Both the position numbers and the translations under genes were made by a program. DNA of 64,000 nt from Maridesulfovibrio ferrireducens (GTDB taxonomy: Bacteria; Desulfobacterota; Desulfovibrionia; Desulfovibrionales; Desulfovibrionaceae), in contig NZ_JAEINN010000002.1 in assembly GCF_016342405.1 (NCBI RefSeq), positions 186,001-250,000 on the forward strand, given 5' to 3'. The notes under the pieces were generated by a model, which had not been told where the DNA came from, made no database searches, and saw only the letters and a program-made list of their open reading frames with translations. Each line of letters opens with the position of its first letter. Position 1 is the stretch's first letter. This document shows, piece by piece, positions 4,943 to 30,600 of the stretch.

Positions 4943-4954
4943 TAAGGGGCGGAA

Positions 4955-10875: not shown

Positions 10876-10888
10876 TAGGTACACTTAA

Positions 10889-11494: not shown

Positions 11495-11496
11495 TT

Positions 11497-12699
11497 ATGC
11501 CTGAACAATTTTTACATGGCGTTGAGGTTGTCGAAATTGACTATGGCCCGCGCTCAATCCGGACCGTTCGGTCCTCGGTTATTGGTATCATAGGCACGGC
11601 CCCTGATGCTGATGCAACGGCATTCCCGCTTAACACTCCGGTGTTGATTGCTGGTCGCCGTACTGAGGCCGCAAAACTCGATACTACTGGCGATGGTAAA
11701 GGAACACTTCCAACCGCATTAGATGCAATCTTTGATCAAATCGGGGCGGTGGTGGTTGTGATCCGCGTTGATGAAGGCGCGAATGATGCCGCAACAATGA
11801 CCAATATAATCGGCGGGGTTGATGCGAATACCGGACAGTATGAAGGCGTTCATGCTTTGCTTGGCTCAAAATCAGCAATCGGATTTACTCCGCGTATCTT
11901 ACTCGCTCCGGGCTTTACTCACCAGCAAGAAGAGGATTCAGAAAATCCTGGTACTTTTTTTAAGAATCCAGTTGTTGCGGAACTTGAAGGGCTGGCCCCT
12001 CGTTTACGTGCAATCGTTCTTGTTGATGGTCCTAACACTAATGATGCTGATGCAATCGGTATGATGAAAGATTTAGGCGCACGGTGTTACATGGTTGATC
12101 CGTGGGTGAAAGTTTTCCGTAACGGGGTTTATGTGAATGAACCGCCATCCGCACGGGTTGCCGGACTCATTGCCAAAATCGATAACGATAAAGGGTTTTG
12201 GTGGTCGCCTTCCAATCAGGCCATTATGGGCATTTCCGGTACGGCCCGCCCTGTTGATTTTGCGCTCGGTGATGCTAATTGCCGCGCTAATCTGCTGAAT
12301 GAAAAGAACGTATCCACCATTATCAATGAAGGCGGCTTTCGTCTTTGGGGCAACCGTACAGGTTCTATTGATCCGAAATGGGCTTTTCTTTCCGTGCGCC
12401 GCACTGCGGACATGATTAACGAATCTTTGCTTCAGGCTCATTTGTGGGCGGTAGATCGCAACATAACCAAAACATACATGGAAGACGTGGTTGAAGGCGT
12501 GAATGCTTATCTTCGCCACCTTATGAATGTAGGCGCGATTCTTGGCGGCACTTGTTGGGCCGATGAAGAACTGAATTCACCGGATCAGATTGCGGCGGGT
12601 AAGGTTTATTTTGATTTCGATTTCACACCGCCAGCACCAGCGGAACACGTAACTTTCCGTAGTCGTATGGTTAACGATTACTTTGAGGAGATTTTTTAA
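11497..12699 (+). CDS. Tail sheath protein (P2 FI-like)
   Basis: This 400-residue protein shows the sheath family features: an N-terminal FLHGVEVVEIDYGPRSIRTVRSSVIGIIGTAPDA, a central APGFTHQ and a C-terminal region with RLWGNRTGS, FLSVRRTADMINESL and HLMNVGAILGGTCWADEELNSP. The C-terminal motif forms the strand exchange between neighbouring subunits. The sheath contracts to drive the tube into the cell. GAAGGAG precedes the start codon, the strongest ribosome site of the tail operon, as expected for an abundant protein. Confidence 0.95.
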   Translation: MPEQFLHGVEVVEIDYGPRSIRTVRSSVIGIIGTAPDADATAFPLNTPVLIAGRRTEAAKLDTTGDGKGTLPTALDAIFDQIGAVVVVIRVDEGANDAATMTNIIGGVDANTGQYEGVHALLGSKSAIGFTPRILLAPGFTHQQEEDSENPGTFFKNPVVAELEGLAPRLRAIVLVDGPNTNDADAIGMMKDLGARCYMVDPWVKVFRNGVYVNEPPSARVAGLIAKIDNDKGFWWSPSNQAIMGISGTARPVDFALGDANCRANLLNEKNVSTIINEGGFRLWGNRTGSIDPKWAFLSVRRTADMINESLLQAHLWAVDRNITKTYMEDVVEGVNAYLRHLMNVGAILGGTCWADEELNSPDQIAAGKVYFDFDFTPPAPAEHVTFRSRMVNDYFEEIF

Positions 12700-13209
12700 A
12701 TGCCAGTAGCAGATAAGGTTTTAAAAGATTTAAATCTGACTGTGGACGGCTTCGGATTTGCCGGAAACATTGAGGAATTCAAGCCGCCGAAGCTTGCCCT
12801 TAAAACTGAGGATCACCGCGCGGGGGGTATGGATTCATCCGTGCCTGTTGAAATGGGTATGGAAGCTCTTGAAGCTTCTTTTATTTTGACCGGGCACTTT
12901 CCCGAGGTTCTTACAAAGTGGGGCGTTTCCGTTGGTGAGAAAACACAACTTACCGCGCGCGGCTCTCTTGAATCATATGATGGTTCTGTAATTCCGGTGG
13001 TGGTTAATTTGCGCGGTCTTATCACCGAAATTGAAGATGGTGCATGGAAGCCCGGCGAAAAGAATAACCAGACTTTCGCTATGAAGCTTGAATATTACAA
13101 GCGTGAACAGAACGGCGTTGTGCTTCATGAAATCGATATCCCAAACATGAAGCGACTTATTAACGGAAAAGACCAGCTTGCAGAAAGACGCAAAGCATTA
13201 GGATTATAA
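12700..13209 (+). CDS. Major tail tube protein (P2 FII-like)
   Basis: This 169-residue protein directly follows the sheath with no gap. It carries the tube signature: VLKDLNLTVDGFGFAGNIEEFKPPKLALKTEDHRAGGMD, VPVEMGMEALEASFILTGH and KMKLEYYK-like KLEYYKREQNGVVLHEIDIPNM near the end. It forms stacked hexameric rings around the tape measure. Size matches P2 FII. It is clearly assigned. Confidence 0.95.
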   Translation: MPVADKVLKDLNLTVDGFGFAGNIEEFKPPKLALKTEDHRAGGMDSSVPVEMGMEALEASFILTGHFPEVLTKWGVSVGEKTQLTARGSLESYDGSVIPVVVNLRGLITEIEDGAWKPGEKNNQTFAMKLEYYKREQNGVVLHEIDIPNMKRLINGKDQLAERRKALGL

Positions 13210-13211
13210 AA

Positions 13212-13451
13212 ATGGCCACTATTACACTTGAATATCCGGTTGAAGAGAATGGTTTGAAAATCGATAAACTTGAAATGCGCCGTCCCAAAGTTCGTGATCA
13301 GATTTCAGCGAAGAAAACTAGCAATGCGGATGAAGATGTTGAAGTTAAACTCTTTGCTAATCTTTGCGAAGTTTCCCCGGCAGTAATCGAAGACATGGAT
13401 ATGAAGGATTATAAAACTCTTCAGAAGGAATATAAAAGTTTTTTATCCTAG
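13212..13451 (+). CDS. Tail assembly protein E (zero-frame product)
   Basis: This 79-residue product begins two bases after the tube gene and ends KEYKSFLS at TAG 13449-13451. Small acidic gpE proteins act as assembly chaperones for the tape measure in P2-like tails. A slippery heptamer lies nine bases before the stop codon, and a fraction of ribosomes should shift into the -1 frame to make the longer E+E' protein (next entry). The residues LEMRRPKVRDQISAKK and FANLCEVSP fit the E/gp41 family of P2/Mu-like tails. Confidence 0.85.
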   Translation: MATITLEYPVEENGLKIDKLEMRRPKVRDQISAKKTSNADEDVEVKLFANLCEVSPAVIEDMDMKDYKTLQKEYKSFLS

Positions 13452-13588
13452 AAGCTAAAAGTGTTCGGCGCGCGGTTCTGGCTCTGGCTCATTTTACGGG
13501 CTGGAGCCGTGCCGAAATTATGAACATGGATACGGAAGACTTTAATAATGATCTGCACGAAATGAGGCGGCTTTTAGATGGCAAATAA
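13212..13588 (+). CDS. Tail assembly protein E+E' (programmed -1 frameshift product)
   Basis: Shifting back one base on T TTT TTA (13439-13445) opens a second frame that continues with ILEAKSVRRAVLALAHFTGW, SRAEIMNMDTEDFNNDLHEM and RRLLDGK, and stops at TAA 13586-13588. This extension is a typical GpE' sequence with the conserved Trp and the helix before the tape measure gene. The total is about 124 residues. No start codon or ribosome site supports independent E' translation, so frameshifting is the natural reading, as in P2 (E/E') and lambda (G/GT). It overlaps the tape measure start by 11 bases. Confidence 0.85.
13439..13445 (+). promoter_or_regulatory. Slippery heptamer T TTT TTA for -1 ribosomal frameshift
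   Basis: The zero-frame codons are TTT TTA preceded by T, an exact X XXY YYZ heptamer. It sits six bases before the E stop codon, and the -1 frame is open for 47 more codons. P2-type phages use a very similar T-run at the same place. No strong pseudoknot is evident by eye downstream. Confidence 0.85.
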
Positions 13589-15590
13589 AAAATATTCCGC
13601 AATAGTTGAAGTGGGCGGAGCTGTTAAAGAAAGCTTTAGCAGTTCTATGGGGTCCGTTCAAAGCGGCCTTGTTTCGGTAGGTAATAGCATTAAAAAGACA
13701 GATTCTAGGTTCGGCGATTTTAATACAGGAGCCGTGGAAACTGAAAGCGTGATTGATAAGGTCGGTTCCGCTTTTAAAGAAATGGAAAATCGGCAGGGGC
13801 AAATAGGGGATTCGTTGAAAATTCTGTCCGGTGATGTTTCTCATTATGCTGATAGCTTGAAAGATGCCCGGTCAAAAATGGATTTGCTAAATAAATATGA
13901 TCCTGCCGCCGTGCGTGAATCCGGTAAAGCTTATCGTGAATTAAATCGTGATGCCGTGAAAATGCGTAAGGAATATGAAAAGCATCCGAAGCCCACTAAA
14001 AAGATGCTGAACGAACTTAAACGAACCGAAGCCGCCGCAAAAAAAGCAGGTAAAGCCTACAACGCTAATCAGGATAAACTTAAAGGTTTAGGTGAAGAAT
14101 TAGCAAGGGCGGGTGTTGATACTAAGAACTTTACCGGAGCGCATAGAAAGCTTTCCAAGGAACTTGATAAGTCCCGCAAGGCTTATAAAAAAATGTCCGC
14201 TGCTGTTAAAGCTGGCGGCAAGATGAAACAGCAAGTCGGTGATTTGGCTCGGACTGGTGGCATGGTTGGCGCAACTATTGTCGCCGGGGTTGGGGCTGTT
14301 GGTGCGGCTGTTACAATCGCGAATCAGGCCACGGGTGAACAGGTTAAGCTTGCAAGGGCTCTCGGTGTTTCTGCTGAAACTTTTCAAGCATGGGGCGGAG
14401 TTGCCAAGGAAGCAGGATTCGAAGTTGATACAATTGGCGACCTGATTGAAGAAATGAATAATAAGCTCGGTGAAAGTGCCGGGCTGGAAGAAATCACTCC
14501 GGTAACTGAATCTTTAGAAATGTTGGGGCTATCATTTGAAGAGCTTCAGGGGCTTAAGCCAGAAGAGCAATTCAAGCGCATAGCCGAGGCTATCAAGGCC
14601 ATGCCGGACGGACAGCAAGCTTCTGCCGCCGCTGATATCCTTATGGGCGGTGAGGCTAATAAATTTTTTGGTTATCTGCGTTCCCGCAAAGAAGGCGTGA
14701 ATGAAATAATAGATCAGCAAAAGCGGCTTAATGTTTTATCCGAAGAAGGGCGCAAAGGCGCGGCTGATTACAATACGGCTTTTTCTCAGTTCACCACGGT
14801 TGTAGGTTCGGCGGCCTCGGAAGTTTCCGGTCTTATTGGTGGTGCGTTGGCTCCGCTCATTTCAGAATACGCTCCTAAAATTGCCGACTTTGTACGTTCC
14901 CACAAAAAAGACTTGATGGGCATAGGCGATGCCGTGCGTGATATGATTCCGGCGGTAATGGATTTCGGGCGCGGTATTTATAAGGTCGGTTCTATGGTGG
15001 CGGGTTTTATCTCTGCCGTGGGTGGGATTGAAAATGTAGCTCTCATCATTGGTGCTGTGATGGCTGGTAAGGCGACTATAGGAATGGTCAGTTTTGCAAG
15101 TTCGCTGGTGACAGTCGGGCAGAGTCTTCCCTTTGTTGCTACCGGAATAAAGGCTATCGGGGCCGCTGTAATGGCAAATCCTATAGGTTTAATTGTTGGT
15201 GCCGTTGTCGGCGGGGCTTTGCTTATCTGGAAATATTGGGAGCCGATTAAAGAATTCTTTTCAGGGCTGATTGATACGGTTGGAAGTGTTGTTTCCAGTG
15301 TAGGAAGCTTTTTCGGTTTTGGTGATGATGAAGAGGAAGCAGAATCAGTTCCGAAAGTCGGGGATGCCGTTAAAAGGTCTATCCCCGTTGCCACTGCCCG
15401 TGCTGAAACCATAACGGAAGCTATGCCCGTTGAGCTTCTTTCAAATAAGTCACAGCAAAGCGTTTCCAATAAATATGAAATTAATATTCACACCGTGCCG
15501 GGACAGTCTGCCGATGAAATAGCGGAGGCTGTAATGCAAAAATTGGCTGAAACTGATCGCGATAACGCACGTCTTGCGATGCACGATTAG
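13578..15590 (+). CDS. Tail tape measure protein
   Basis: This 670-residue protein starts at ATG 13578 inside the E' end. The N-terminal 200 residues are helical and coiled-coil (SGKAYRELNRDAVKMRKEYEKH, NELKRTEAAAKKAGKAYN). Residues about 230-250 and 470-550 are hydrophobic (MVGATIVAGVGAVGAAVTIA, ANPIGLIVGAVVGGALLIWKYW), as is usual for tape measures that reach the inner membrane. LARALGVSAETFQAWGG is a familiar TP901-type core motif. It sets tail length and is injected ahead of DNA. It follows E/E', its dedicated chaperone. Confidence 0.9.
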   Translation: MANKKYSAIVEVGGAVKESFSSSMGSVQSGLVSVGNSIKKTDSRFGDFNTGAVETESVIDKVGSAFKEMENRQGQIGDSLKILSGDVSHYADSLKDARSKMDLLNKYDPAAVRESGKAYRELNRDAVKMRKEYEKHPKPTKKMLNELKRTEAAAKKAGKAYNANQDKLKGLGEELARAGVDTKNFTGAHRKLSKELDKSRKAYKKMSAAVKAGGKMKQQVGDLARTGGMVGATIVAGVGAVGAAVTIANQATGEQVKLARALGVSAETFQAWGGVAKEAGFEVDTIGDLIEEMNNKLGESAGLEEITPVTESLEMLGLSFEELQGLKPEEQFKRIAEAIKAMPDGQQASAAADILMGGEANKFFGYLRSRKEGVNEIIDQQKRLNVLSEEGRKGAADYNTAFSQFTTVVGSAASEVSGLIGGALAPLISEYAPKIADFVRSHKKDLMGIGDAVRDMIPAVMDFGRGIYKVGSMVAGFISAVGGIENVALIIGAVMAGKATIGMVSFASSLVTVGQSLPFVATGIKAIGAAVMANPIGLIVGAVVGGALLIWKYWEPIKEFFSGLIDTVGSVVSSVGSFFGFGDDEEEAESVPKVGDAVKRSIPVATARAETITEAMPVELLSNKSQQSVSNKYEINIHTVPGQSADEIAEAVMQKLAETDRDNARLAMHD

Positions 15591-15599
15591 GGGAACATT

Positions 15600-15980
15600 A
15601 TGGGAATGTTGAAACTAGGTAAATTTATTTTCAGCGTTGATACTGCCGCGTATCAGGCTTTGCAACGGTCAACCGCTCAGAAATGGGCAAGGATTGAACG
15701 TATAGGCAAACGTGCCGCTATGCAGGACTTAGGGCCGGGCAAGGATGAAATTACCCTGCCCGGTGTTGTCTATCCTCATTACAAGGGCGGTCTAGGTCAG
15801 ATTGATAAAATGCGAGAAATGCAAGCGGCGGGTGATCCGTTGATGCTGGTAGACGGGTTGGGCAATGTCCATGATGAGTGGGTGATTCTTTCCGTTAGTC
15901 AAAAAGACTCCGTTTTTTTTAAGGACGGAGTAGCTCGTAAGCAAGAATTTACCTTAAAAATTCAGCGGTACGAAGAATGA
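15600..15980 (+). CDS. Tail protein U (P2 gpU-like)
   Basis: This 126-residue protein has MLKLGKFIFSVDTAAYQALQRS at the N-terminus and the conserved block LGPGKDEITLPGVVYPHYKGGLGQI, which is diagnostic of the P2 U family. It acts in tail completion at the baseplate/tube side. GGGGAACATT stands just upstream of the ATG. The stop overlaps the next start by four bases. Confidence 0.9.
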   Translation: MGMLKLGKFIFSVDTAAYQALQRSTAQKWARIERIGKRAAMQDLGPGKDEITLPGVVYPHYKGGLGQIDKMREMQAAGDPLMLVDGLGNVHDEWVILSVSQKDSVFFKDGVARKQEFTLKIQRYEE

Positions 15981-16177
15981 TATACAGAACTAAAGACGGC
16001 GATATTTTAGACCGGATATGTTTTGACTATTACGGTTTCGAATCTACGGTTGCAATCGTGCTTGAAGCTAATCCCGGCCTTGCTGATAATGGTCCGGTTT
16101 TTATTGCCGGCACTGAAATATTATTGCCAGAAATCGCCACGCCGGAACCGGATCAGGGAATCAGCTTATGGGATTAA
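15977..16177 (+). CDS. Tail protein X (LysM-like)
   Basis: This 66-residue protein is MIYRTKDGDILDRICFDYYG followed by VAIVLEANPGLADNGPVFIAGTEILLPE, the classic P2 gpX/LysM-like fold. The LysM part may contact peptidoglycan or the baseplate hub. It is coupled on both sides by overlaps (4 and 10 bases). Confidence 0.9.
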   Translation: MIYRTKDGDILDRICFDYYGFESTVAIVLEANPGLADNGPVFIAGTEILLPEIATPEPDQGISLWD

Positions 16178-17151
16178 CTTATAAGCCAGCATATAGAGTT
16201 GAGGCCGACGGCAACGACATAACTGAAGCCATTCGGGAAAATTTAATATCTCTTACCATAACCGATGAAGCTGGCGTTAAGTCTGATTCATTGGCTATTT
16301 CTCTGCACGATAAAGGTTACAGACTGCCGAAAGCGGGTGGACAACTCAAAGTGTGGTTAGGCTACGGACAAGCGGCAACCTTTATGGGGCTGTATGTTTC
16401 GGATGAAATCACGCTTTCAGGTCCGCCGGATAAAATGGACATTAAAGCGGCTGGCGCACCGCAGGAAAAGAGCGCGGCTTATTCCCATCTTCAGACGCAG
16501 AAAACCCGCTCATGGCTTCCGCAAACTATAGGCGCATTGGTGGCAACCGTCGGAGCTGACCACGGCCTTGACCCTGCCGTTGCTTCTGATTTGTCCGGTG
16601 TAGGTTTGCCGCATATCGACCAGATAAACGAATCTGACATGCACCTGCTTACTCGCATTGCGGCGGATCACGATGCAATAGCAAAGGCCAACGGGGGCAA
16701 GCTTGTATTTGCTCACAAGGGGCAAGGTAAAACTATTTCCGGCAAATCAATGCCCACCATGGCCCTGATCCCCTCAGAAGTTACAAACTACCGCGCAACT
16801 ATCACCGCCCGAACTGACTATAATAAAGTTGTCGCTATTTGGCGTTCTGTAGAGTCCGCAAAGGATATTGAAGAGATTGCGGGAGTAGGGGAACCTGTTC
16901 ACCGTATTCGGCATATTTATCCAACACCTGAAGCGGCGGCAAAAGCGGCAAAGGCTAAGCTTGAGGCTTTCCAAAGGGGTAAACAAAGCCTTTCGGTAAG
17001 CCTTCCGGGAAGGCCAGAATTAAGGGCAGAGTGTAGGCTTTCGCTTTCCGGCTTTCGTGATGGGGTTAATGGTCTTTGGAGTATTACCCGTGCTACTCAT
17101 AAGTTGGGGAGTGGTGGGTATGTAACTAGTGTTGAGGGGGAGAGGGTGTAA
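16168..17151 (+). CDS. Late control / baseplate hub protein D
   Basis: This 327-residue protein shows the phage late control D family pattern: YKPAYRVEADGNDITEAIRENLISLTITDEAG at the N-terminus, KVWLGYGQAATFMGLYVSDE, and a C-terminal RHIYPTPEAAAKAAKAKLEAFQRG. In P2-like tails this protein forms the hub that holds the spike. It is the last plus-strand phage gene here. Only five bases separate its stop from the stop of the oppositely oriented retron RT, with no terminator between, so late transcription can run antisense into the retron. Confidence 0.92.
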   Translation: MGLTYKPAYRVEADGNDITEAIRENLISLTITDEAGVKSDSLAISLHDKGYRLPKAGGQLKVWLGYGQAATFMGLYVSDEITLSGPPDKMDIKAAGAPQEKSAAYSHLQTQKTRSWLPQTIGALVATVGADHGLDPAVASDLSGVGLPHIDQINESDMHLLTRIAADHDAIAKANGGKLVFAHKGQGKTISGKSMPTMALIPSEVTNYRATITARTDYNKVVAIWRSVESAKDIEEIAGVGEPVHRIRHIYPTPEAAAKAAKAKLEAFQRGKQSLSVSLPGRPELRAECRLSLSGFRDGVNGLWSITRATHKLGSGGYVTSVEGERV

Positions 17152-17156
17152 GTTAT

Positions 17157-18194
17157 TTATTTTTTGTTTAACAAAGGTTTTAAAACGGAAAGAGCATTAA
17201 GGGCATCAGCGTCTTTTGGGTTTATGAAAAGTATATGATTAGCTATTCCAAGTAGATGTCTTACGTAATTTGATTTGTATATTTTTTCATGATTTTGGTG
17301 TGAGGAAATTCCATATTTTTTTATATAGAATATAGATTGGCGCAGATTTCGTCTTGTTTTACGAGGTACCTGCATTTTTTCATTTACGACTATCCCCGTG
17401 ACTCTTTGTTGCTGACCTTGGCCTAATATTCGTGTTTTAGTTGGATTAAGATCCATTTTTAAATCAGATAATGCGGATGTAATAAATCTGATTATTTCTT
17501 TTGGAAAAAAAGTGCCTGAAAAAGTTAAATCGTCGGCATATCGTGTATATCTTATTTCGCGTTTTTTGCAAAAACCAGCTGCCCTTTGGTCAAATCCTTT
17601 CATAATAATATTAGATAGAGCCGGACTTGTTGGTGCTCCTTGTGGCAATGCGTCATCGTAAATACATAAGTTTGTTAATAAGCTTGCAATGCTCGATCGA
17701 TAGCCTATTGTTCGAAATAAATTAAATATTATGCCTCCGTGGATACTTCCAAAAAAATCTTTTATATCAAGGCATAAAACTGTGGGTTGTTTGCGGTGGA
17801 ATCGGGCATTTGATTTGATAGATTCTTTGCTTATGTATGCCTTAGCATACTTGCTGACAGGAATGTTGTTTAAGATGTTTGTAAGAATCCAGTGTTGAAT
17901 TTCTTTTAGGCTGGGGAGTGGTTCAGTTATGTTTCTAGATCCACCATTTTTTTTAGAAATTGAAAATTGTCTATAAAAATTATCAGGACTATTAGTTACA
18001 GCCATTATATATTTGGGAGAATAACCTACTAATAAGCTAAAATGTACAGGGTCAAATATTATAGGAGCTGATCTTTTATACAATTGTTCTGCATAGTTGA
18101 GGCAAGTATGTATATATTCTTTGCTGTGCCCTTCTTTTTTGCCTTTTTTGGCGAATGCTTGAGAATATTTTTTCCAGATTAAAGAGCTAGGCAT
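17157..18194 (-). CDS. Retron reverse transcriptase
   Basis: This 345-residue reverse transcriptase starts at ATG 18194 (MPSSLIWKKYSQAF). GGAG precedes it by six bases, and the ATG lies inside the a2 repeat of the retron RNA; upstream in-frame codons belong to that RNA. Retron hallmarks are all present: NAxxH (SNARFHRKQ), catalytic YADD in RYTRYADDLTFSG, LDIKDFFGSI for the first Asp, PQGAPTSPALSN, and VTG (RVTGIVVNEK) in the Y region. It would start a 2'-5'-linked cDNA at the branching G of the RNA encoded just upstream. Together with the PRTase and winged-helix genes it forms one operon. The region is clearly AT-richer than the phage genes beside it. Confidence 0.95.
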   Translation of the reverse strand: MPSSLIWKKYSQAFAKKGKKEGHSKEYIHTCLNYAEQLYKRSAPIIFDPVHFSLLVGYSPKYIMAVTNSPDNFYRQFSISKKNGGSRNITEPLPSLKEIQHWILTNILNNIPVSKYAKAYISKESIKSNARFHRKQPTVLCLDIKDFFGSIHGGIIFNLFRTIGYRSSIASLLTNLCIYDDALPQGAPTSPALSNIIMKGFDQRAAGFCKKREIRYTRYADDLTFSGTFFPKEIIRFITSALSDLKMDLNPTKTRILGQGQQQRVTGIVVNEKMQVPRKTRRNLRQSIFYIKKYGISSHQNHEKIYKSNYVRHLLGIANHILFINPKDADALNALSVLKPLLNKK

Positions 18195-18198
18195 GACA
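18187..18198 (-). repeat. Retron a2 repeat containing the RT start codon
   Basis: TGTCATGCCTAG on the minus strand is the perfect complement of a1. The ATG inside it (first base 18194) is the start codon of the reverse transcriptase, so pairing of a1 with a2 would hide the start. Confidence 0.88.
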
Positions 18199-18407
18199 AA
18201 CTCCACTACACACAAATCGTATCTTAGCACTATCCTTCCAGCCTGCTTCAGGGTGGAAGGATAGTGCGCGAGAGCCCGCAGCGTTATGATTGTAGTAGCT
18301 GTCTCCTCCGGAGCAGCTGCTACGATCATAAAAGGCTTGAAAGGATGTTCGTTCGGGAATGGCGACTCGCCACTCTATTGGGAGTAATCCCAAAGTTCTA
18401 ATGAAGC

Positions 18408-18419
18408 TGTCATGCCTAG
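18408..18419 (-). repeat. Retron a1 repeat
   Basis: CTAGGCATGACA on the minus strand. It overlaps the stop codon TAG of the winged-helix gene and pairs perfectly with a2 at 18187-18198, forming the base stem of the retron RNA. The branching G follows directly. Confidence 0.88.
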
Positions 18420-18724
18420 TCAAAAGTAAATTCCTTAGGAATGTATGTTTCGTCAACCTTTATTTTGTCAATCCTAAAATCGTTAGCAGGTTCAATCCAG
18501 CCTGCGTCGGTTCTAGGTTTGCTCATAGGGCCATTTGTTTGAAGAAATTGATTACCTTCAAATGTCAAAGTGAGACCTTCCGTTGATTCTTTCAAATAGC
18601 TAAGTGATATTGCTATGCCAATTAAGTCAAATATTTGTGAATAATCTAAGCCTTGATTTAATAACGCCTCAATGCTTGATGATTTTTTTACTAGCCGAAG
18701 AAGTAGACCTAGTTTGGGCTCCAT
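18416..18724 (-). CDS. Retron-associated small winged-helix protein
   Basis: This 102-residue protein has helices LGLLLRLVKK, SIEALLNQGL and YSQIFDLIGIAISLSYLK, followed by a beta wing TEGLTLTFEGNQFLQ, a compact winged-helix layout. The C-terminal 40 residues are not recognisable. It starts on the stop codon of the PRTase gene (TAATG), and its own stop lies in a1 of the retron RNA, so the three genes and the RNA form a single unit. PRTase plus winged-helix pairs next to retron RTs are, to my recollection, the hallmark of type III retrons in the published classification. Role: effector or regulator; DNA/msDNA binding is inferred. Confidence 0.7.
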   Translation of the reverse strand: MEPKLGLLLRLVKKSSSIEALLNQGLDYSQIFDLIGIAISLSYLKESTEGLTLTFEGNQFLQTNGPMSKPRTDAGWIEPANDFRIDKIKVDETYIPKEFTFD

Positions 18725-19584
18725 TAAAACCTCGGAAATGGTACATCAAGTTTTTTGTTAGTGAACCAAAAAAGTGGAAAAGTGTTGTTAGGTGTACGTA
18801 TCATAGAAATAAGTGCTTCAGAGCGACCGTATCCCAGTTCGTACGTAGGGGGAACTGAAAATTCTTTTTCAATGTCTAACATGGTATTTATGTTTTCGGT
18901 GATTTTTCCTGATAGATATGGATCATCACTAATTCCTTTGTTTGCCATTTCTCCTACTCCAATATTAACACCGGAGTCGTAAAGTCTTTCAAGCCCATGC
19001 TGCATTGCTACTAGTGATATCAGATATATGTCTTTAAAATCAATATTATACTCATCAGAAAATTCATTTATAGTTCTAATTGCGGTATCTCCAGTTCCAA
19101 TGAAATCATCAAAAAAAATAAAGCATTTTTTTTGAGTTTTAAATGATTCTTTTTTGGAATCGTAAGCAACATAGTCTCTAAGAATTTCGATTTTTTTACC
19201 GTGCAGTGGTGGAGCTATCTTTATAAATGATTGATTTTGGATTTGATATAAAAAACTGTGACCGCTTTTAAATTTTTCTTTCTTTATATCTTTCCAATGT
19301 ACTAAAGGAATAAGATAAATTATTTTTGCATCTTGATGATTTGAAAAACTTATATCTTCAAATGCTTTTTTTAATAAAAATGAATAGTTATCAGCTTTGT
19401 ATATCTTGAACTTGCTAATAAGGTGAAGTAAGAGAAGGGATTGTTTTTCATTTAACTGTTCCATAATCTCAGCGAAAATCTGGAAAAGTTTTTTTCCAGA
19501 TTTCTTTTCTTCGCGATCTGTCCCCCATCCTTTTTCAGTTAAGATGGTATGTAGTTTTGTTATTAGTTTTATATTAGTGCTCAT
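18724..19584 (-). CDS. Retron effector, phosphoribosyltransferase-like protein
   Basis: This 286-residue protein has KKCFIFFDDFIGTGDTAIRT at about residues 150-170, matching the PRPP-binding loop of type I phosphoribosyltransferases: hydrophobic strand, two acidic residues, then (T/G)xGxT. The surrounding pattern (KIIYLIPLVHWKD upstream; IYLISLVAMQHGLERL downstream) fits the Rossmann-like core. The N-terminal 90 residues are helical. In retrons such PRTase proteins are the toxic effector, held in check by RT-msDNA; the substrate is unknown. It leads the operon. No clear ribosome site precedes its ATG (ATTAATTTAATC), so translation may be weak. Base composition is AT-rich relative to neighbouring phage genes. 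Confidence 0.75.
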   Translation of the reverse strand: MSTNIKLITKLHTILTEKGWGTDREEKKSGKKLFQIFAEIMEQLNEKQSLLLLHLISKFKIYKADNYSFLLKKAFEDISFSNHQDAKIIYLIPLVHWKDIKKEKFKSGHSFLYQIQNQSFIKIAPPLHGKKIEILRDYVAYDSKKESFKTQKKCFIFFDDFIGTGDTAIRTINEFSDEYNIDFKDIYLISLVAMQHGLERLYDSGVNIGVGEMANKGISDDPYLSGKITENINTMLDIEKEFSVPPTYELGYGRSEALISMIRTPNNTFPLFWFTNKKLDVPFPRF

Positions 19585-21080: not shown

Positions 21081-23090
21081 TTAAAACTCAATTTTATTTT
21101 CAGTGAGAATCTTTTTACCGCGTTGTGAATTGATAACAGCATTCAGAGCATGAATTACTGTTCCATCAAATTTTTTATCTGCCATGCTTTGCAGAACTCC
21201 AACGGCTTCTTGAGCTGTTTTAGCTTTTCTGTATGAGCGATGCTGTACCAATGCACTGAAGGTGTTTGTTACCCCCAGAATTCTTGCGAGGAGTGAAACT
21301 TCTGTTCCCTTTAGTCCGTTTGGATACCCTGAACCGTCGATGTTTTCCTGCATCTGCCAAAGAGTTTGTGTGATGGGAAGAGAAAATTCGATTCCTTCTA
21401 ATATCTTACAAGTGTGCTCAATATATCTTTGTGTTTCAAGAAGTTCTTCCGGAGTAAGCTTACCCGTTTTTTGCATAATTTCTTTTGGAATAAAACTTTT
21501 CCCGACCTGAGACAAAATAGCCGATGCTTCAACGGTTGCACAGTCTGCATTGCTTAAAAGCAGGGTCTCAGCAATTTCTACGGAGAGGAGACGCATGAGA
21601 GCGGTGTGACCGTCGAGGAAAGGTACGCTTTCTACAGCACGGACCAAAGCATCAATAATCTGCTGGCGCATTTCAACATTTTGTGTGTTGGTTATTTTTT
21701 CTTCGGATATATCTCTAAAGAGTCTTAGTATTGAGTCGTTATCCTTTTTTTGTTTATACGGTATTCCAAGCACTTGAAGATGAGTTTGGTTAGAGCCTCT
21801 GTCTAAAGTCATTTCTTGAGAATAGATATTTTCTGACATATTAGTCATTTGCCCAATATGCGTTAATATTTTTGTCTCAGAGTTAAGGAAAGTTCTTTGG
21901 TCTGTTGAGCCTATTGCATTGTTAAAATTAGTTCCGGTTAAATCGGCAAAAGCTTTATTCACAAAGACATATGATTCTGTTGTGTTGTCTTTTAAACAGA
22001 GTGGAATCGGCAAAGTTTTGCAAATTTTTTCCAGCATGTCTTTACGTATTTTTGTCGGGATAAGTTCTGAATTAAGTTCCTGACTTCGGTTAAGATATTT
22101 TTTGCGTGAGAAAAGTAAGATTATGGTCAGGAGAAGAAAAGTTGTAGCAGCATAAGCAATAATAGCTATTGTTTCAGCAAGTTCCTTATTCTTATTTAAT
22201 TGAGCGTAAATTTGATCTGCATCAGTTTCCACCATAACCCACCAATGAATTGTCGGGATGCTTATAGCAGAGGAATAGACTTGTTTTGCTTTATATAAAT
22301 CGGAGCGTATTCCAAACTGTATTTCAGAAACACCTTTTAAAGAAACACCTACAGATTGCAGTTTGAGGTTGTCCGGGTAGCTAAAAGAAACTTCCTGAAA
22401 TTTATTTTCATCTTCTTGAATAATATGAACCGTACTTCCATAATTCAGTCTTTGATCGGTGGCTAAAAAGATGCGAAGAATTTCAGTCATGGGAACGGTC
22501 AGTACAAGTACTTTTATCGGGGCAACAGAATCCGAAAGCGCTTTGGCGGGAAAGATAGGAAGAAAAAGTTCTGATACTAACTGACCATATGACGGGCGCA
22601 GTCTGGAAAAAACAGGAGTTCGAGTTTGTAATACGTACTGAATGGATTTTTGATATGAATTTTCAGAACCTTCGAGTCTTCCTTCAGTGGTTGCAAATAA
22701 TTTGCCGTCTAAGTTAAAAAGATGGCCGGCTGTAAAACCGGATACTTTGATAAAGTTGTCAAAATCTTCTTGAGCTTTTTGGACTTTTTCTTCTTTTGTA
22801 CTGGCTAAACCTTCAAGGGAAAGCCTGAAAATTCTGGCTTTAGCAAGATTTCTTCCCTGAACAACAAATTTAACCAGTTGTGAAGAGAGTGATTCAGTCT
22901 CACTATTCAGCACTACCGATTGATATTTTTCCAAGTCATTGATTAAAATATTCTCTTGTTTTTCCAAAAAGATTGAAACGAAGTAAATTGTTCCTGCTGC
23001 AATGAAAAGTAGAGCACACAAGAGGAAAACTTTTTTTCTGTTAAAAAGTTTTTTAATCTTATTCAATACATTTAATATTTTATTTGCCAT
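21081..23090 (-). CDS. Membrane sensor with periplasmic domain, PAS and degenerate HD-GYP domain
   Basis: This 669-residue protein has a TM at about 21-41 (FLLCALLFIAAGTIYFVSIF), a periplasmic Cache-like sensor (about 42-305), a second TM (about 307-330), a PAS domain (about 355-470, CLKDNTTESYVFVNKAFADL) and an HD-GYP domain (about 490-660). The HD-GYP fold is clear (GYPNGLKGTEVSLLARILGV, GKLTPEELLETQRYIEH). However, the metal ligands are lost: the HD pair reads SQ in AILSQVGK, the HHE block reads MQE before NIDGSGYP, and the late Asp is Asn in GVTNTFSAL. It is therefore probably non-catalytic, perhaps a c-di-GMP receptor. It is the last gene of the adhesin operon, 28 bases from HlyD; a regulatory role for adhesin display is inferred. 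Confidence 0.8.
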   Translation of the reverse strand: MANKILNVLNKIKKLFNRKKVFLLCALLFIAAGTIYFVSIFLEKQENILINDLEKYQSVVLNSETESLSSQLVKFVVQGRNLAKARIFRLSLEGLASTKEEKVQKAQEDFDNFIKVSGFTAGHLFNLDGKLFATTEGRLEGSENSYQKSIQYVLQTRTPVFSRLRPSYGQLVSELFLPIFPAKALSDSVAPIKVLVLTVPMTEILRIFLATDQRLNYGSTVHIIQEDENKFQEVSFSYPDNLKLQSVGVSLKGVSEIQFGIRSDLYKAKQVYSSAISIPTIHWWVMVETDADQIYAQLNKNKELAETIAIIAYAATTFLLLTIILLFSRKKYLNRSQELNSELIPTKIRKDMLEKICKTLPIPLCLKDNTTESYVFVNKAFADLTGTNFNNAIGSTDQRTFLNSETKILTHIGQMTNMSENIYSQEMTLDRGSNQTHLQVLGIPYKQKKDNDSILRLFRDISEEKITNTQNVEMRQQIIDALVRAVESVPFLDGHTALMRLLSVEIAETLLLSNADCATVEASAILSQVGKSFIPKEIMQKTGKLTPEELLETQRYIEHTCKILEGIEFSLPITQTLWQMQENIDGSGYPNGLKGTEVSLLARILGVTNTFSALVQHRSYRKAKTAQEAVGVLQSMADKKFDGTVIHALNAVINSQRGKKILTENKIEF

Positions 23091-23118: not shown

Positions 23119-24414
23119 CTATCGCGTATTGTGTTCGGAAAGAGCGCCACGCATCCCGCGGGTGATGGGCGAGAGGAGATATTCCAGTACGCTTTCTTCC
23201 CCTGAAAGAATGTTGACCTCAACAATCATTCCTGGCAAAAAATTCTTTGTTTTGTCCATGTCATCTCCAACAGTGTCAAATATCACACGGTAATACCATG
23301 CTCTAGTCAGGTCATCGAAATATGTCTTTGCAGAGATATTAACAATCTTTGCATGAAGCATAGTGTCATTTGAAAATTCATATGACGAAGGCCTTATTTT
23401 TGCCAGCATCCCGTTCCAAATTTTAGTACGGTCGCTAGGTTGTATTTTTCCCTCAATGCGAATGGTTGCGGCAGAAGGAACAATTTCAGCAAGGGCCTCA
23501 CCGGATCTAACAATTCCGCCGATGGTATTTGCGCTGAGTTTGTAAATGGTTCCCTCAATAGGAGATCTTATTAAACTTCGTATTATTTGTTCATTAGCCG
23601 CATTAAGTTCTTCAGTTACAGTCTGAATCTCAGAGCTGACGGTGCTCATTTCTTCACGGATATCACGATAAAAATTAAGTTGTTCACCTTTTATACGCTG
23701 TTTAAGTTCTGTAATTTCCAAAGAATATTCTTCGCGTTTACTGAAAATTTCAGCAATGCTGGTAGTAATTTTAGCAAGCTCTGCTTTTCTTTGTAAAAGA
23801 AGCTGTCTTGAGCCTATTCCTTTTTTTACCATTGGTTCCAGCATGTCATATTGCTGTTTCAAAACGGACTCTTCATCAAGCATGTTTTTCATGTGATTTT
23901 CACTGGCAGCGATGGCGGCTTGAGTCTGTTGTATTTGTGTTTTTAATATGTTGATTTTTTCGTCTAAAGAATCCTGTCTGTAGCGTGCGAATTGTAATTC
24001 TCCAAGTTCTTCAGAATCCATTGAATCTTTTTGAAGATCGTCAGTTGTATTGCCTATTTCTGCTGAAAGACGACCCAGTTTAGCCTTTAAAAGTTTAAGC
24101 TTAATCAAAGATTTATTTCTTTCTTTGGTAATGTTTAAATTGGCGATAGTAAGCAGCTTTTGCCCCTTTTTAACCTTGTCGCCTTCCCGAACAAATACAT
24201 TTTCAACGATTCCACCTTCAAAATGGCCTACGATCTTATCTGTCAGGTTGGTTTCAACGACTCCTTGGGCTCGAACCGTTTTTTCAATTTGATTAAAATT
24301 AGCCCAGACCAAAAAAGAAATTACAAATATAAGAATGAGAATGAGGACAACAAGGTTGCCCATACTTCTTTCAAGAGACCAAAAAAGGTTATATTTCCAA
24401 GAATTACGTTTCAT
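23119..24414 (-). CDS. HlyD-family membrane fusion protein of type I secretion
   Basis: This 431-residue protein has a short cytoplasmic start and a TM at about 19-38 (LVVLILILIFVISFLVWANF). It continues with a biotinyl-lipoyl half (GVVETNLTDKIVGHFEGGIVENVFVREGDKVKKGQKLLTI), a long coiled coil (about 85-280) and the second lipoyl half with the beta-barrel (SPIEGTIYKL, GEALAEIVPSAATIRIEGKI). This is the periplasmic adaptor that joins the ABC exporter to the TolC channel. Its start lies two bases behind the ABC gene stop. The final segment EYLLSPITRGMRGALSEH is the usual HlyD-type ending. Confidence 0.93.
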   Translation of the reverse strand: MKRNSWKYNLFWSLERSMGNLVVLILILIFVISFLVWANFNQIEKTVRAQGVVETNLTDKIVGHFEGGIVENVFVREGDKVKKGQKLLTIANLNITKERNKSLIKLKLLKAKLGRLSAEIGNTTDDLQKDSMDSEELGELQFARYRQDSLDEKINILKTQIQQTQAAIAASENHMKNMLDEESVLKQQYDMLEPMVKKGIGSRQLLLQRKAELAKITTSIAEIFSKREEYSLEITELKQRIKGEQLNFYRDIREEMSTVSSEIQTVTEELNAANEQIIRSLIRSPIEGTIYKLSANTIGGIVRSGEALAEIVPSAATIRIEGKIQPSDRTKIWNGMLAKIRPSSYEFSNDTMLHAKIVNISAKTYFDDLTRAWYYRVIFDTVGDDMDKTKNFLPGMIVEVNILSGEESVLEYLLSPITRGMRGALSEHNTR

Positions 24415-24416: not shown

Positions 24417-26675
24417 CTATTGGTTGGATAATTTAGAAATTATGCGGTCTCTTGTGTCATCCGCGACTATTTTTCCCTGATCAATAACTAAGATTCTATC
24501 CACAATCTGTAAAATATGGGGTCTGTGTGTCACTATAAAAAGTGTTTTCTTCGCCATAGTGTTTTTCATACGTTGAATGAAAATTTTTTCCTGTGTGGAA
24601 TCCATTGAACTGGTTGGTTCATCCAGCAACATTAAGGGAGGATTATCAATGAGAGCTCTGGCTATTGCTACAGCTTGCCGCTGTCCTCTGGAGAGGTTTT
24701 TACCACCTTCAAGTATTTGCATTTTTAGCCCGAGTGGATGTTTTGATACAAATTTTTCAATTCCGGAAATAGCCAGCGCATTCTGTAAAGTTTCCTGGGT
24801 AACTGTGCGGGCCCCCATCAAAAGATTAAATTCTAATGTACCATAAAAAAGAACCGGAGATTGCGGAACAACTCCCATATGCTCGCGTACTTTTTCGATA
24901 TTCAAATAAGCCATGTTGTGGTCGTCCAAAAGAATTACTCCCTCTGTAGGAGTGGCAAGTCCGGCAATCAATTTCAAAAGGGTTGTTTTTCCGCTTCCCA
25001 TAGGCCCGATGATACCTATTTTCTCGCCCGCTTTTGTTTTAAATGAAACATTTTCTAAAACAAACGGAGATTCTGGAAAGTAGCGAAAAGAGACTCCGTC
25101 AAAGCTTATAGCTCCATGAACTTGTTGAACTTTATATTGTTTTACTTCAGTGGTTTCTTTTTCGAGGCTGAGTAATTCTTTTAAATCTTTGTAGGATCTT
25201 CTGGCGAAAAGGTAGGATGTTATCAAGTTTGACATGCTTGCAGATGCAGCAATGCAGCGGCCTGAAAGTACCATCGTGGCAAGAAGAGCTCCGCTTGTCA
25301 TTGATCCTTCGCTAATCAGAAAAAAGGCAACTATCAGTAATCCCGCAGAGTTAAGTTGACCCAAAAAGCCTGTAGTCATGGAACATCGGGCTTGAGCAAT
25401 GCGGTATTTGGAACTCATTTCGCCTGATTTTTCTACTTCGGTAGTCCAGCGTGAAATAAAGAGGCGGGCCGCATTTGTGGTCTTAATTGATTCGATGCCT
25501 TGAAACACTTCATTCAAGAAGGAGCTTTTACGCGATTGTAGTTTGCTTTGTGCCGAGACATTGTTGTCAATGAAGAAACCGTAAACAATAGAAACAAGAA
25601 GAACCAGAAAGGATATTAATGCTGGTACGATAAAAAGCATTCCGCTGTTCAGATAGATAACGAAAAGGAAAAAGAATAAGAAGAAAAAGTCAATAGATCC
25701 AACAACAAGCTGAGTTGTGAAAAGAGATTTTATGCGAGAAAATTCTTGAACAGAGTGAGTAAGGTGGCCTGATGATGATGGAAGCTTTGCATGAATGGTG
25801 TCGAGTATCTGGGCCAATAAGTATGGCTCTGCTTCCCGTTCAACTCGTAATGCCGCTTTTTCAACCAATGATGTGCGGATATTTTTCAGGATGTAATCAA
25901 AAAATAAAACGAAAATTGCGCCTGTTATAAGAACCCGCAAAGAGTTTTCTGCAAGGTTGGGGAGAATTCGGTCATAAAAAATCCCCATTAATAACGGGAT
26001 TACCAAAGTAAAACAATGAATAAGAACTGTTGCCAGAATTACTTGAGAATACAAAGGCCACATTTTTACGACCTGTCCGATAAACCAAGATAGGCTTAGG
26101 AATGAAACCCTGTCCGTTTCGAATATTATATCGAAAGAGCAAGTCCAATCGTTAAAATGGCATAAGTCTTCTTTATTATTTCTAATTGTTTCATTTTTGC
26201 CACTCCATATTGAAAGTTGTTTACCTATTTTTTTTTCAATTACGGCAAAACTTCCATCGGGATATTGAACTATCGCAGGGATATCTTCTTTGGTCAGTTT
26301 TGGAGGAAGTGGAGTGAATGTGGTGTCAAGTCCCATGTTTTCGGCTTGCAGTCGCAGATACTCATTGAGTGAAGAAGTGTTTCCCATCTGTAAGGACTGT
26401 TCCGTTGCCACTATACCGAATTTGTCTGCAACTTTCTTCAAACATGAAGCAATGGTCGTGCCTAGTTCTTCTATTTCGTCATCTTCATTATCGAAGATTC
26501 CGATATCTTCATCAGCTTCTGCGCTATCACTGTCATTTTCTATTTTCGTACTCACAAGAGAACCGTCGGTTGCTTCTTTAGAAGTAGCAACACCGACTGA
26601 ACCGGAGTTAACAGTTGTACAATCCTCGTTTTGAGTTTGTTCAGAAGAGCTGTTTTGATCATTTGAAGAAGTCAA
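24417..26675 (-). CDS. Type I secretion ABC transporter with degenerate C39-like domain
   Basis: This 752-residue exporter begins with an unusually long acidic, Ser/Thr-rich N-terminus (about 1-75). Next is a C39-like domain (about 75-170: SCLKKVADKFGI, LQAENMGLDTTFTPLPPKL, DIPAIVQYPDGSFAVIEKK). Where peptidase C39 has its His, this domain shows S/F, so it should bind rather than cut substrate, as in HlyB/LapB-type exporters. Six TM helices span about 205-480. The ATPase shows Walker A GPMGSGKTT, signature LSRGQ, Walker B LMLLDEPTSSMD and the switch THR. It powers export of the giant adhesin encoded upstream. A gap of 85 bases separates it from the MotB-like gene. Confidence 0.93.
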   Translation of the reverse strand: MTSSNDQNSSSEQTQNEDCTTVNSGSVGVATSKEATDGSLVSTKIENDSDSAEADEDIGIFDNEDDEIEELGTTIASCLKKVADKFGIVATEQSLQMGNTSSLNEYLRLQAENMGLDTTFTPLPPKLTKEDIPAIVQYPDGSFAVIEKKIGKQLSIWSGKNETIRNNKEDLCHFNDWTCSFDIIFETDRVSFLSLSWFIGQVVKMWPLYSQVILATVLIHCFTLVIPLLMGIFYDRILPNLAENSLRVLITGAIFVLFFDYILKNIRTSLVEKAALRVEREAEPYLLAQILDTIHAKLPSSSGHLTHSVQEFSRIKSLFTTQLVVGSIDFFFLFFFLFVIYLNSGMLFIVPALISFLVLLVSIVYGFFIDNNVSAQSKLQSRKSSFLNEVFQGIESIKTTNAARLFISRWTTEVEKSGEMSSKYRIAQARCSMTTGFLGQLNSAGLLIVAFFLISEGSMTSGALLATMVLSGRCIAASASMSNLITSYLFARRSYKDLKELLSLEKETTEVKQYKVQQVHGAISFDGVSFRYFPESPFVLENVSFKTKAGEKIGIIGPMGSGKTTLLKLIAGLATPTEGVILLDDHNMAYLNIEKVREHMGVVPQSPVLFYGTLEFNLLMGARTVTQETLQNALAISGIEKFVSKHPLGLKMQILEGGKNLSRGQRQAVAIARALIDNPPLMLLDEPTSSMDSTQEKIFIQRMKNTMAKKTLFIVTHRPHILQIVDRILVIDQGKIVADDTRDRIISKLSNQ

Positions 26676-26760: not shown

Positions 26761-27624
26761 TTATTTTTTACCTAAATTAATGACCACCTGATTAGTTCCG
26801 GGGACACCATCACCTAATGCTCTGAATGTGATTTTGGCTTTCGGGATTTTTCCGTCCTGATTAACAACCTTTATCAGCCCGTAGAGCCTTTTATATGAGA
26901 CTGAGTTAGACATGCTGGAAGAAACACCATTGTGGTTGAGAGTTGCAGTTAACTGCAATCCTTTTTGCATAATGGCTGCTTTGTTTTTCGCAATCCATGA
27001 CAGTAATTCAGTTCTTGTTGAATCTTCAAGAGTACTTGTGAGCTGGTTATATAGGATAATAATACGGTTTTTACTATCTATACCTTTTACCAGTTTAGTC
27101 ACGAATGGTGTGTTCTGAGGCGTTTCTTTTGCGTCTATTTCGCGTTCTATTCCTCCGCTGGAGGATTCGAGCTCTGCAATTCTAGCTAAGGCTTGTTGCA
27201 GTTTTTTTTCTGTTGCCGGATCATTTACAAATAGCCTTATTTTTTTTGCGGCAGCTTCAGCTTTGATAAGGCGTGCTTGAAGGACTGCTTTTTCCTGCTC
27301 AATTTGTTCAATAGTAACTTCCGGTTGAGCCGGGGTGGGCATGAGGTCTTCTTTTTTTAATACAACAGCCTCATTCAATGTATCTTGCAGGGCCGTCATA
27401 GCTGTAGAGCTTTCCGGAGATGCAAGGTCTTGAGAGGCGGCGACCATTGTCTCAACCTGTTCTGTTGAGGCCGACGCATTCGGGGTGACTTCTTTTAACG
27501 CAACAATATACGACAAAGTCCCGACGACTAAGACCATGATCAAGGTAAAGAATACCATCATCATTAAAACTGTTGATAGAGCATCAACAAATCCAGGCCA
27601 CGGAGGCCCGTTATCAGCGGACAT
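26761..27624 (-). CDS. MotB/TolR-like membrane protein of the adhesin locus
   Basis: This 287-residue protein has one N-terminal TM at about 18-42 (LSTVLMMMVFFTLIMVLVV). A conserved Asp precedes it in PGFVDAL, at the place of the proton-binding Asp of MotB/ExbD/TolR. A coiled coil follows (about 100-155, IEQEKAVLQARLIKAEAAAKK), then a periplasmic C-terminal domain with NSVSYKRLYGLIKVV, reminiscent of OmpA/MotB peptidoglycan-binding domains though diverged. It lies directly behind the adhesin gene (42 bases). Its natural partner is the MotA-like protein at the other end of the operon. I infer energy coupling or cell-wall anchoring for adhesin secretion; no experiment supports this here. Confidence 0.7.
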   Translation of the reverse strand: MSADNGPPWPGFVDALSTVLMMMVFFTLIMVLVVGTLSYIVALKEVTPNASASTEQVETMVAASQDLASPESSTAMTALQDTLNEAVVLKKEDLMPTPAQPEVTIEQIEQEKAVLQARLIKAEAAAKKIRLFVNDPATEKKLQQALARIAELESSSGGIEREIDAKETPQNTPFVTKLVKGIDSKNRIIILYNQLTSTLEDSTRTELLSWIAKNKAAIMQKGLQLTATLNHNGVSSSMSNSVSYKRLYGLIKVVNQDGKIPKAKITFRALGDGVPGTNQVVINLGKK

Positions 27625-27666: not shown

Positions 27667-30600
27667 TCAAGCTAAGCTGTCAATATGTTCAGGTTCAACA
27701 GGCGGGGTGTCAACTCCGTCAGTTGTAAAATGAGAGTTTTCTTCTGCCGGTCCATCACTTTCAGCCGGAGGTTCACTGGAACTTTCAAATAAACTTTCGT
27801 TTTGGACGGCTTCTGACAGTTCGCTTGCAAGCACAGAAAAGTCATATGTCTGATCGCCTGCTAAATCAACAACCTCACCACTTGTATTTAAAGCTTCAAA
27901 GTTGAGGTCATAAGTTCCTTCACCAAGCTCATCAAGGAAGTCGTAAGACCAACTGCCATTCTCTCCATCTACTGAAATTGTTTCTTCAATGACAATATCA
28001 GGATTGTTGTCTCCGTCAGTATCCCCTTCAATAGTAAGCTTTATTTCAGTTACATCAGAATTATGAACAACTCCTTCTATCGTGGGAGTGTCCGTGTCGG
28101 CAATGTCATCACCATCTGCATCGGAAGATTCAGAGAGAGACATTGATGATTCTTCGCTGCTGTCTGCTTCGTCATCAGGAGTGTCCGCTTCTGGCTCGTC
28201 AGTGGAATCCGAGGAAGGTTCAGACTCTTCCGGAGCGGCGGCATGTACCTCTTCTTCAGGAGAAGGATTGCGGTCCGGTTCCGAATCTGGTTCTGCGTCA
28301 GGCTCTGTGTCCGGTTCAGGTGCGGCCGCGTTCATCATCATAGGAGCCGCCATTGCACTCGATGTCGGTGCAGGTGCCGGCGGAGTTATTCCGTCAGTTG
28401 TATCAAGATCTACAACAGTCTGGGCAGATACGTTACCTGCCGGGTCCAAAACTTCGGCAGTCACATAGTCATATTCGGAAATTTCAGGCAGGGAAACAGC
28501 AATACTACCTGAGCGCTGGGCTAAGATTGTTATGACTTCACTCGCATCACTACCGTCTATGCCGTGGAATGTCAGTCTTACCTTACACTCATGGTCTTCC
28601 GCTACTGCAAATCCGGTGTTACCGACAAGCAGGAGGGTTCCCCATGCATCCACCAGATTCAAAGTTGGAGCCGCCAGAACTTTATCGTAAACAGTAAAGC
28701 CTATTGAACTGTTACTGACGTTACCGGCGAGATCTTCTGTGTGAGAGGTCGCCACGTAGTGAGCGTTGTCAAGAGAACTCAAATCTCCTTCACCGAAGTT
28801 AATTTCCCAATTACCGTCAGCATCAAGTGTCAGATTATCCTGTGTGAAAGTTTTGAAAGCCGCACCGTCTTTAGTGATGGTGATGCTGTATTTTCCCGTA
28901 TCGGTGACTATCCGTCCGTTTAAACTGAGATTTTCATCACAGGTCAGATTGTCATTATTATGAAATCCAAGGTCATCAGCTGCTGGTAAATCAATTGAGG
29001 TGACGGGATTTTCAGTGTCAACAACCAAATTGAAGGACTTGGAGTCTGCGTTATTGTAGTTACCCGCTGTGTCACTGAATCGCACTGTTACTGGATATGA
29101 GCCGTCGACCACCGCAGGATCGACTGTGAATTGAACAATACCGTCTTCATCTGTGTCTTTTGCCCAGTGTCCACTGAAACCTGCTCCGCTGATGGAAGCC
29201 CATGTTCCCTTTTCCACATTAATTTGCAGAGTGGGATTGTTTACATTGGTTATGAAGTCGCCTTGAACTCCGCCGTCCTGCAAAAGAACAACAGGGGTAT
29301 CCTGAATGAATGGATTATTTGTATCAATGGTTATGGTCAGGGGAGAGGATTGCTCTACATGTCCTGCCTGATCCGCTGTTACCAGTTTATAGATGTGTTC
29401 CCCGTCTGGAAGATCATCGTCAGGTGTGTAGCTCGCATAAGTACCGTTGAACACGTCTGTTTTTACGAGCACATCATTTAAAAACAACAGGTAAGTTGCT
29501 CCGTTGTCTCCATATAAGGTGAATGAAGGTCTGGATGTGTTGGTAATATTATCATGCAGATAGCTGCTTAGGGACGTTCCAAACGGGCCGTGATCCGAGG
29601 ACTCATGCATATCAATGGATGTAGATCTTGTCTGGGTATCTATGGTTACATCAAGTGATGGAGTGTGAAATTCATTACCTGCCATATCTACAGACGTAAC
29701 AACGAAAGAGTAAGACCCGTCCGGCATTACTCCGGTGGGGTAGGTCCATTTTCCGCTATCATCCACGATGAACACATCGGATTCACCATAAAGTTCGCCA
29801 CCATTATAGTAGGTGGTTATTTTTATTCTTGAGCCTGCTTCGGCTGTTCCTTCCAACGGAAGATTGTTCACGCTTGTGAATCCGTCTTTATGGGAGGAAA
29901 AGTTATCCGGTAAATCTGATATCTTAGCCGGAAGTGGAACAGATTCAACCATTGTGTCGGCACTGTCCGGCAGATCCACAAAAGGCATATTCAAAGTAGA
30001 GTCAACTTTTAAAGATTGCTCAACACCTACAACAGTGTTGCCGGCTTCGTCGGTGTTGATGATTCTGATGGTATATTCGTCATTAGCCAACTGTGGGAAA
30101 GTGAAAGCCCAATCTCCGTTAGTTTCCATAGCTTCTGGGGTAATTATTCCCATGTTGATAAATTTGAAGCCGCCGGGAGATTCTGAGTCTTCAACTTTTC
30201 GTTGAACTTGAACAGTACTGCCGATTTCAACAGAACCCTCAATAGTAGGACTGGCATAGTTAGTTTCCCAGTCCTTGTAGGTTTCAGTGTTAAAATCTAT
30301 TCCTTCTGCAATTTCTTTAGGGGTGCGCCATTCATTATCAAGACCTGTGTCAACATTTTCAGCAAGTCTCAGAGTAGATGCTGCTGTCCCTGAATCTATT
30401 TTCAGTTCAAACGGTTCGGATGTATAAGTTGTTCCGTTAAAATAGGTACTTTTGACGTAGTAGGAGTAATCACCGTCGGCAACTTCTCCTTCTGAGTTTT
30501 CAGGAAGATCCCATTTCCATATACCGTTACCGGCAGATCGGACAGTTGTAACGAGGGCATTGTTTTTGTCGTATATTTCAACATCTGTGAATGATTCGGC

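Follow-up and report, generated by a model that had tools for sequence, protein, structure and literature searches.

In the published Lap- and Dvh-type systems considered here, control of adhesin retention by c-di-GMP ends in proteolysis. What, then, could a receptor of this kind control at a giant adhesin locus where neither the protease nor its cleavage site is found? The question is raised by a 64,000-nucleotide stretch of the Maridesulfovibrio ferrireducens genome (contig NZ_JAEINN010000002.1, positions 186,001 to 250,000), hereafter the window, whose coordinates are used throughout. We describe a new clade of DvhD-like receptors, DvhD2, which comes without the LapG-like protease DvhG and with a MotA/MotB-like gene pair. 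Because the protease is missing and a proton-channel-like pair stands in the operon instead, this arrangement suggests a second, non-cutting control of adhesion in bacteria.

An operon of seven genes around a giant adhesin

A sequence-only reading of the window had assigned the open reading frame at 21081 to 23090 to a giant-adhesin operon, and it is indeed the last of seven genes, all on the minus strand and separated by gaps of 2 to 85 bp, in the order exb-tolC-adhesin-cc-abc-hlyD-dvhD2. The MotA/TolQ/ExbB-like gene exb (51880 to 52989) is followed by a TolC-type outer membrane channel (50166 to 51824; PF02321, TIGR01844), the adhesin (27667 to 50127), the MotB-like gene cc (26761 to 27624), an LssB-like ABC transporter for type I secretion (24417 to 26675; TIGR03375, E = 3e-175, below the cut-off of that model), and an HlyD-type membrane fusion protein of the type I system (23119 to 24414; TIGR01843, E = 7e-87). 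The same gene order recurred in the DvhD2 loci that were read through. Two operons (G622 and G631) were read in part, owing to contig ends or a low-reading stretch, and their other genes are known from genome searches.

The adhesin is a Ca2+-tandem-repeat protein of 7486 aa (NF033510). No RTX cores were found in it, and the adhesins of the DvhD2 operons are likewise without RTX repeats. At the position of a retention domain it carries an N-terminal domain (aa 1 to 95; 49843 to 50127, minus strand) with the signature GSPDDYxYxLRGADLVLxD...FLFVGNIMSLDG, which is strongly conserved among DvhD2 operons, as is an acidic stretch behind it that ends in a conserved Trp. The domain matched no Pfam family and no PDB chain, and profile comparison with known retention domains did not support its assignment as a canonical one. 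Within the adhesin gene (30454 to 30527) there is also a sub-threshold fluoride riboswitch match, which at 28.3 bits against a gathering threshold of 34 is probably due to chance.

The region on the other side of the receptor gene is occupied by contractile-tailed (Mu-like) prophage genes (528 to 17151), including those for capsid, baseplate V and J, tail fibre, sheath, tape measure, and hub. At the prophage end, between these genes and the adhesin operon, lies a complete-looking type III-A retron cassette (17157 to 19584) with a reverse transcriptase (PADLOC RT_III-A, E = 1e-144), a winged-helix protein (WH_III-A), and a phosphoribosyltransferase effector (PRTase_III-A); the retron ncRNA was sought by Rfam scan alone.

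A membrane receptor with a dead HD-GYP domain

DvhD2 is a protein of 669 aa with the order TM-dCache-TM-PAS-HD-GYP. The sequence-only reading had described a membrane receptor with Cache-like and PAS domains and a well-kept HD-GYP fold, and each element could be located. Hydropathy peaks at residues 22 to 40 and 308 to 326 mark two transmembrane helices on either side of a dCache-like periplasmic domain (approximately aa 46 to 300; 22191 to 22955). A PAS domain follows (aa 365 to 463; 21702 to 21998), recognized by alignment with the solved chain 9rc0 and by a weak PAS_9 match (PF13426, E = 3.4e-4, below its cut-off). The C-terminal part (aa 466 to 669; 21084 to 21695) comprises a stalk helix and the HD-GYP domain, which matches HD_5 (PF13487) over residues 485 to 645 with an E value of 3.1e-46, aligns with 9rbz and 9rc0, and retains DGSGYP at 585 to 590. 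The GGDEF-EAL module and the LapD/MoxY domain are absent from DvhD2, in which Pfam recognized HD_5 and PAS alone.

The replacement of metal ligands proposed in that reading also held. Residues 527 and 528 (21507 to 21512) are S and Q at the HD position of active HD-GYP enzymes, M580 replaces H, and N609 replaces the late D, so that the metal ligands of an active phosphodiesterase are missing. Of ten further HD-GYP domains encoded by this genome, nine have H-D, and all ten have H and the late D. The SQ, M, and N residues were invariant in every aligned row of both DvhD2 and canonical DvhD, which makes the degenerate site a fixed family trait and not the product of chance decay. In both this site and its domain architecture, DvhD2 is a member of the DvhD family.

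A sister clade of DvhD

The closest solved chains to DvhD2 are 9rc0 (E = 4e-44), 9rbz (E = 2e-38), and 9rc2 (E = 5e-11), the last covering residues 112 to 294 of the periplasmic part. Their entries name no gene and label them "HD domain/sensory box protein." By our own identification they appear to be the constructs of DvhD crystallized by Font et al. (2026, Nat Commun, PMC13090378), namely, PAS/HD-GYP, HD-GYP, and dCache, because the residue types and spacings given there for the nucleotide site fit the letters of the chains exactly. DvhD (DVU1020/BfsD) is a receptor of Desulfovibrio vulgaris Hildenborough that is reported to bind c-di-GMP with an effective Kd of about 0.1 uM without hydrolysis and to change conformation upon binding, with splaying of its stalk. 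Its target is the LapG-like protease DvhG, whose cleavage site in the adhesin is [T/A/P]AAG (PMC13090378).

Judged from sequence, the window receptor is not DvhD itself but a member of a sister clade. In our tree, DvhD2 formed a single clade (support, 100/100) set apart from 36 canonical DvhD proteins; it comprises 13 genomes, which do not represent independent events because they belong to two genera of one family. Identity between the two groups is about 25 to 30%, and the pair found within the window genome shares 25 to 29%. The dCache domain has a membrane-distal stretch of 25 aa in 13/13 DvhD2 proteins versus 44 to 91 aa in the 36 canonical ones, and a Trp shared by 94% of canonical DvhD proteins is replaced in DvhD2 by Gln or Arg (Gln71 in the window protein). 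A scan of genome contigs returned a single ortholog (L072), from the MAG Desulfovibrio sp. Glu_egg_str_bin110.

Binding of c-di-GMP by the window protein is likely, judging from its alignment with DvhD. It retains R650, Y652, R653, P567, L577, and Y621 of the nucleotide site. Of the residues among these that DvhD needs for binding, as shown by mutation, R650, R653, and P567 are kept in all aligned DvhD2 rows, and Y652 is kept in all but one. Lost in DvhD2 are H588, the first two residues of the RPR motif (RP648-649), and K582, through which DvhD contacts a phosphate; affinity for the nucleotide may be low as a result. The surroundings of the operon yielded no c-di-GMP riboswitch.

Absence of the protease and its cleavage site

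Canonical DvhD and DvhG go together: across 149 genomes of the family, all 65 with canonical DvhD also encode DvhG (Fisher P = 8.7e-37, a nominal value, as the genomes are related). In that set, a DvhD-type protein occurred without DvhG in four genomes, all of which have DvhD2 only. When genome searches included an order-wide sample, DvhG (Peptidase_C93) was wholly absent from 8 of the 13 DvhD2 genomes (G048, G074, G117, G140, G610, G624, G640, and G648); these are 99 to 100% complete, and G048, G117, G140, and G610 are single contigs. The other five, including the window genome, have DvhG accompanying a separate canonical DvhD. In one of these five (G608, contig C1, 3450702 to 3451086; L108 and L109), two reading frames share the Peptidase_C93 match, and its DvhG may therefore be broken while canonical DvhD remains. 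The main text of PMC13090378 makes no mention of DvhD without DvhG, its phylogenetic map being drawn from organisms with both, although its supplement may list some DvhD2 proteins.

The second system of the window genome, on another contig (C4), is a canonical Dvh set of ABC transporter, HlyD, DvhG, and DvhD, with TolC and an RTX-repeat adhesin on the opposite strand that runs off the contig end. Its DvhG-DvhD pair (L003, 4365 to 7169) contains the only DvhG of this genome. Neither DvhG nor any other protease gene was found within the DvhD2 operons read, and in the window none lies beside the receptor.

The cleavage site is missing as well. At canonical loci, TAAG or PAAG was present within residues 100 to 109 of three adhesins, whereas [TAP]AAG was found behind the N-terminal domain in none of the adhesins of DvhD2 operons, that of the window included. 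Across these adhesins, [TAPS]AAG is rare and always at residue 959 or beyond; for [TAP]AAG, 3 occurrences were seen in all 13 versus 6.8 expected, all in the repeat body. The motif is absent from the whole window adhesin, which is weak evidence because only 0.75 was expected; the absence behind the N-terminal domain is the part that counts.

These results divide the parallel with LapD drawn in the sequence-only reading. An inactive c-di-GMP-related domain serving as receptor at an adhesin locus stands and has been published for the homolog DvhD, so the analogy is right in kind without being new. The protease part does not stand: the protease-restraint logic of LapD and DvhD does not extend to an operon without LapG or DvhG, present in eight genomes that lack DvhG altogether, whose adhesins have no N-terminal cleavage site.

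A MotA/MotB-like pair that accompanies DvhD2

In the order-wide sample, exb occurred in 13 of 297 genomes, and 13/13 of these carry DvhD2. It was absent from all canonical-DvhD loci examined; a distant match in another family (G317, 86 bits) lies outside any type I secretion operon. The Exb protein contains four hydrophobic segments as well as the motifs GLMGTFLGL and GMGTAFSTSLFGL; it matches PF01618 (MotA_ExbB) over the cut-off, as did 5/5 of its relatives. The cc product starts with PPWPGFVDALSTVLMMM, which forms one N-terminal TM helix containing Asp14, and continues as a coiled coil. Asp14 was invariant in 12/12 cc sequences read. Assignment of cc relied on alignments, on a weak ExbD match in 3/5 sequences, and on its best family match, the peptidoglycan-binding model PRK09039 (E = 5e-9, far below the cut-off). 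We infer that its C-terminal region may be OmpA/MotB-like because a low-confidence model weakly predicts the order strand-helix-strand-helix-strand-strand.

The adhesin operon thus encodes a MotA/TolQ/ExbB-like protein together with a MotB-like protein with a TM Asp, as in SiiAB-type systems. In Salmonella, SiiAB is a Mot/Exb/Tol-type proton channel that governs retention and release of SiiE, and LapG-like processing of SiiE has not been observed (PMC12607715, PMC6272769). Profile searches of the PDB with exb and cc gave no match to SiiA or SiiB, and kinship would lie at the superfamily level alone. Two-sequence alignments gave AlphaFold models too poor for use (mean pLDDT, 34 for DvhD2 and 44 for cc), and Foldseek returned no match to the cc model at an E value of 0.001.

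A possible protease-free switch and its alternatives

On balance, we lean toward DvhD2 being an inside-out c-di-GMP receptor with a dead HD-GYP domain that governs adhesin retention without DvhG, probably via the SiiAB-like exb/cc pair. A more specific version, in which the receptor reads c-di-GMP and gates a MotA/MotB-like proton channel, and the channel retains or frees the giant adhesin without a protease, we put forward tentatively and with rather less than even confidence. The nucleotide would bind the dead HD-GYP dimer, as the retained R650, R653, P567, L577, and Y621 and the published DvhD data lead us to expect. The stalk would then splay, the TM helices move, and the dCache domain change state, as proposed from the DvhD structures. 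From the genome context, we infer that this might switch the exb/cc pair, through the periplasm or the membrane, and that the adhesin N terminus, remaining uncut, might be kept in TolC or released from it.

The canonical operon on the other contig offers a more conventional explanation, in which DvhD2 restrains the DvhG encoded there and this protease acts in trans on the window adhesin. The window genome does have one DvhG, beside canonical DvhD, and a single LapD/LapG pair can govern several adhesins (PMC13090378). However, the DvhD2 operon is kept in eight genomes without any DvhG, [TAP]AAG does not follow the N-terminal domain of its adhesins, and neither the distal dCache extension nor the conserved Trp is present in DvhD2, all of which make this account highly improbable. 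DvhD2 might also control an unrelated periplasmic protease encoded at an unlinked locus, whose cleavage site in the adhesin has a different sequence; the conserved acidic stretch ending in Trp could serve for processing or docking. Yet the operons read hold no protease gene and no candidate was seen, and we regard this possibility as improbable.

It is also conceivable, though unlikely, that DvhD2 no longer reads c-di-GMP, its HD-GYP domain being a dimerization scaffold and its input an external ligand or redox state sensed via dCache or PAS. The changes at K582, H588, and RP648-649 are compatible with such a role, as is the stronger conservation of the dCache domain (64 columns conserved at >=90% in DvhD2 versus 17 in DvhD, the DvhD2 sample also being less diverse). 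Nevertheless, conservation within DvhD2 is highest in the HD-GYP part (122/204 columns), including the R, Y, P, and L of the nucleotide site, and the genome encodes about 30 GGDEF domains as a potential source of c-di-GMP. A somewhat stronger but still doubtful case can be made that exb/cc merely energizes or anchors secretion and that DvhD2 acts directly on the secretion system or the adhesin. SiiE secretion in Salmonella persists without siiA/siiB, so a pair of the exb/cc type can be separate from transport; the strict co-occurrence of exb with DvhD2 in 13 genomes and its absence from canonical-DvhD loci argue against this case.

If the protease-free switch is real, it would provide a second-messenger input for SiiAB-type systems. 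It would also offer an entry to a question from the SiiE literature, namely, how a proton-channel pair governs retention and which signal it obeys. A series of genomes that have the receptor but neither the protease nor its cleavage site implies that this receptor module can be coupled to a different output, and the paralogous DvhDG and DvhD2 systems within one genome make a clean comparison possible.

Comparison with known systems

DvhD2 has the HD-GYP fold and GYP motif in common with PmGH and other active HD-GYP phosphodiesterases, which possess the metal ligands that it lacks. With DvhD it shares the TM-dCache-TM-PAS-HD-GYP architecture, the SQ/M/N site, and its place as the last gene of a type I secretion adhesin operon; it differs in forming a separate clade, in lacking the distal dCache stretch and Trp, and in an operon that has MotA/MotB-like genes and no DvhG. 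LapD of Pseudomonas fluorescens is likewise an inside-out receptor encoded at the locus of a giant adhesin and derived from a c-di-GMP enzyme domain that is dead. Its HAMP-GGDEF-EAL module, its LapD/MoxY periplasmic domain, and its target LapG are all missing from the DvhD2 system. The SPI-4 locus of Salmonella enterica (SiiA-F) also combines type I secretion, a giant Ca2+-binding non-RTX adhesin, and a MotA/MotB-like pair, and SiiE resembles the window adhesin in having Ca-binding tandem repeats, no RTX cores, and no LapG-type cleavage. Unlike SPI-4, whose six genes siiA-F include no c-di-GMP receptor, the DvhD2 operon adds a receptor of the DvhD family.
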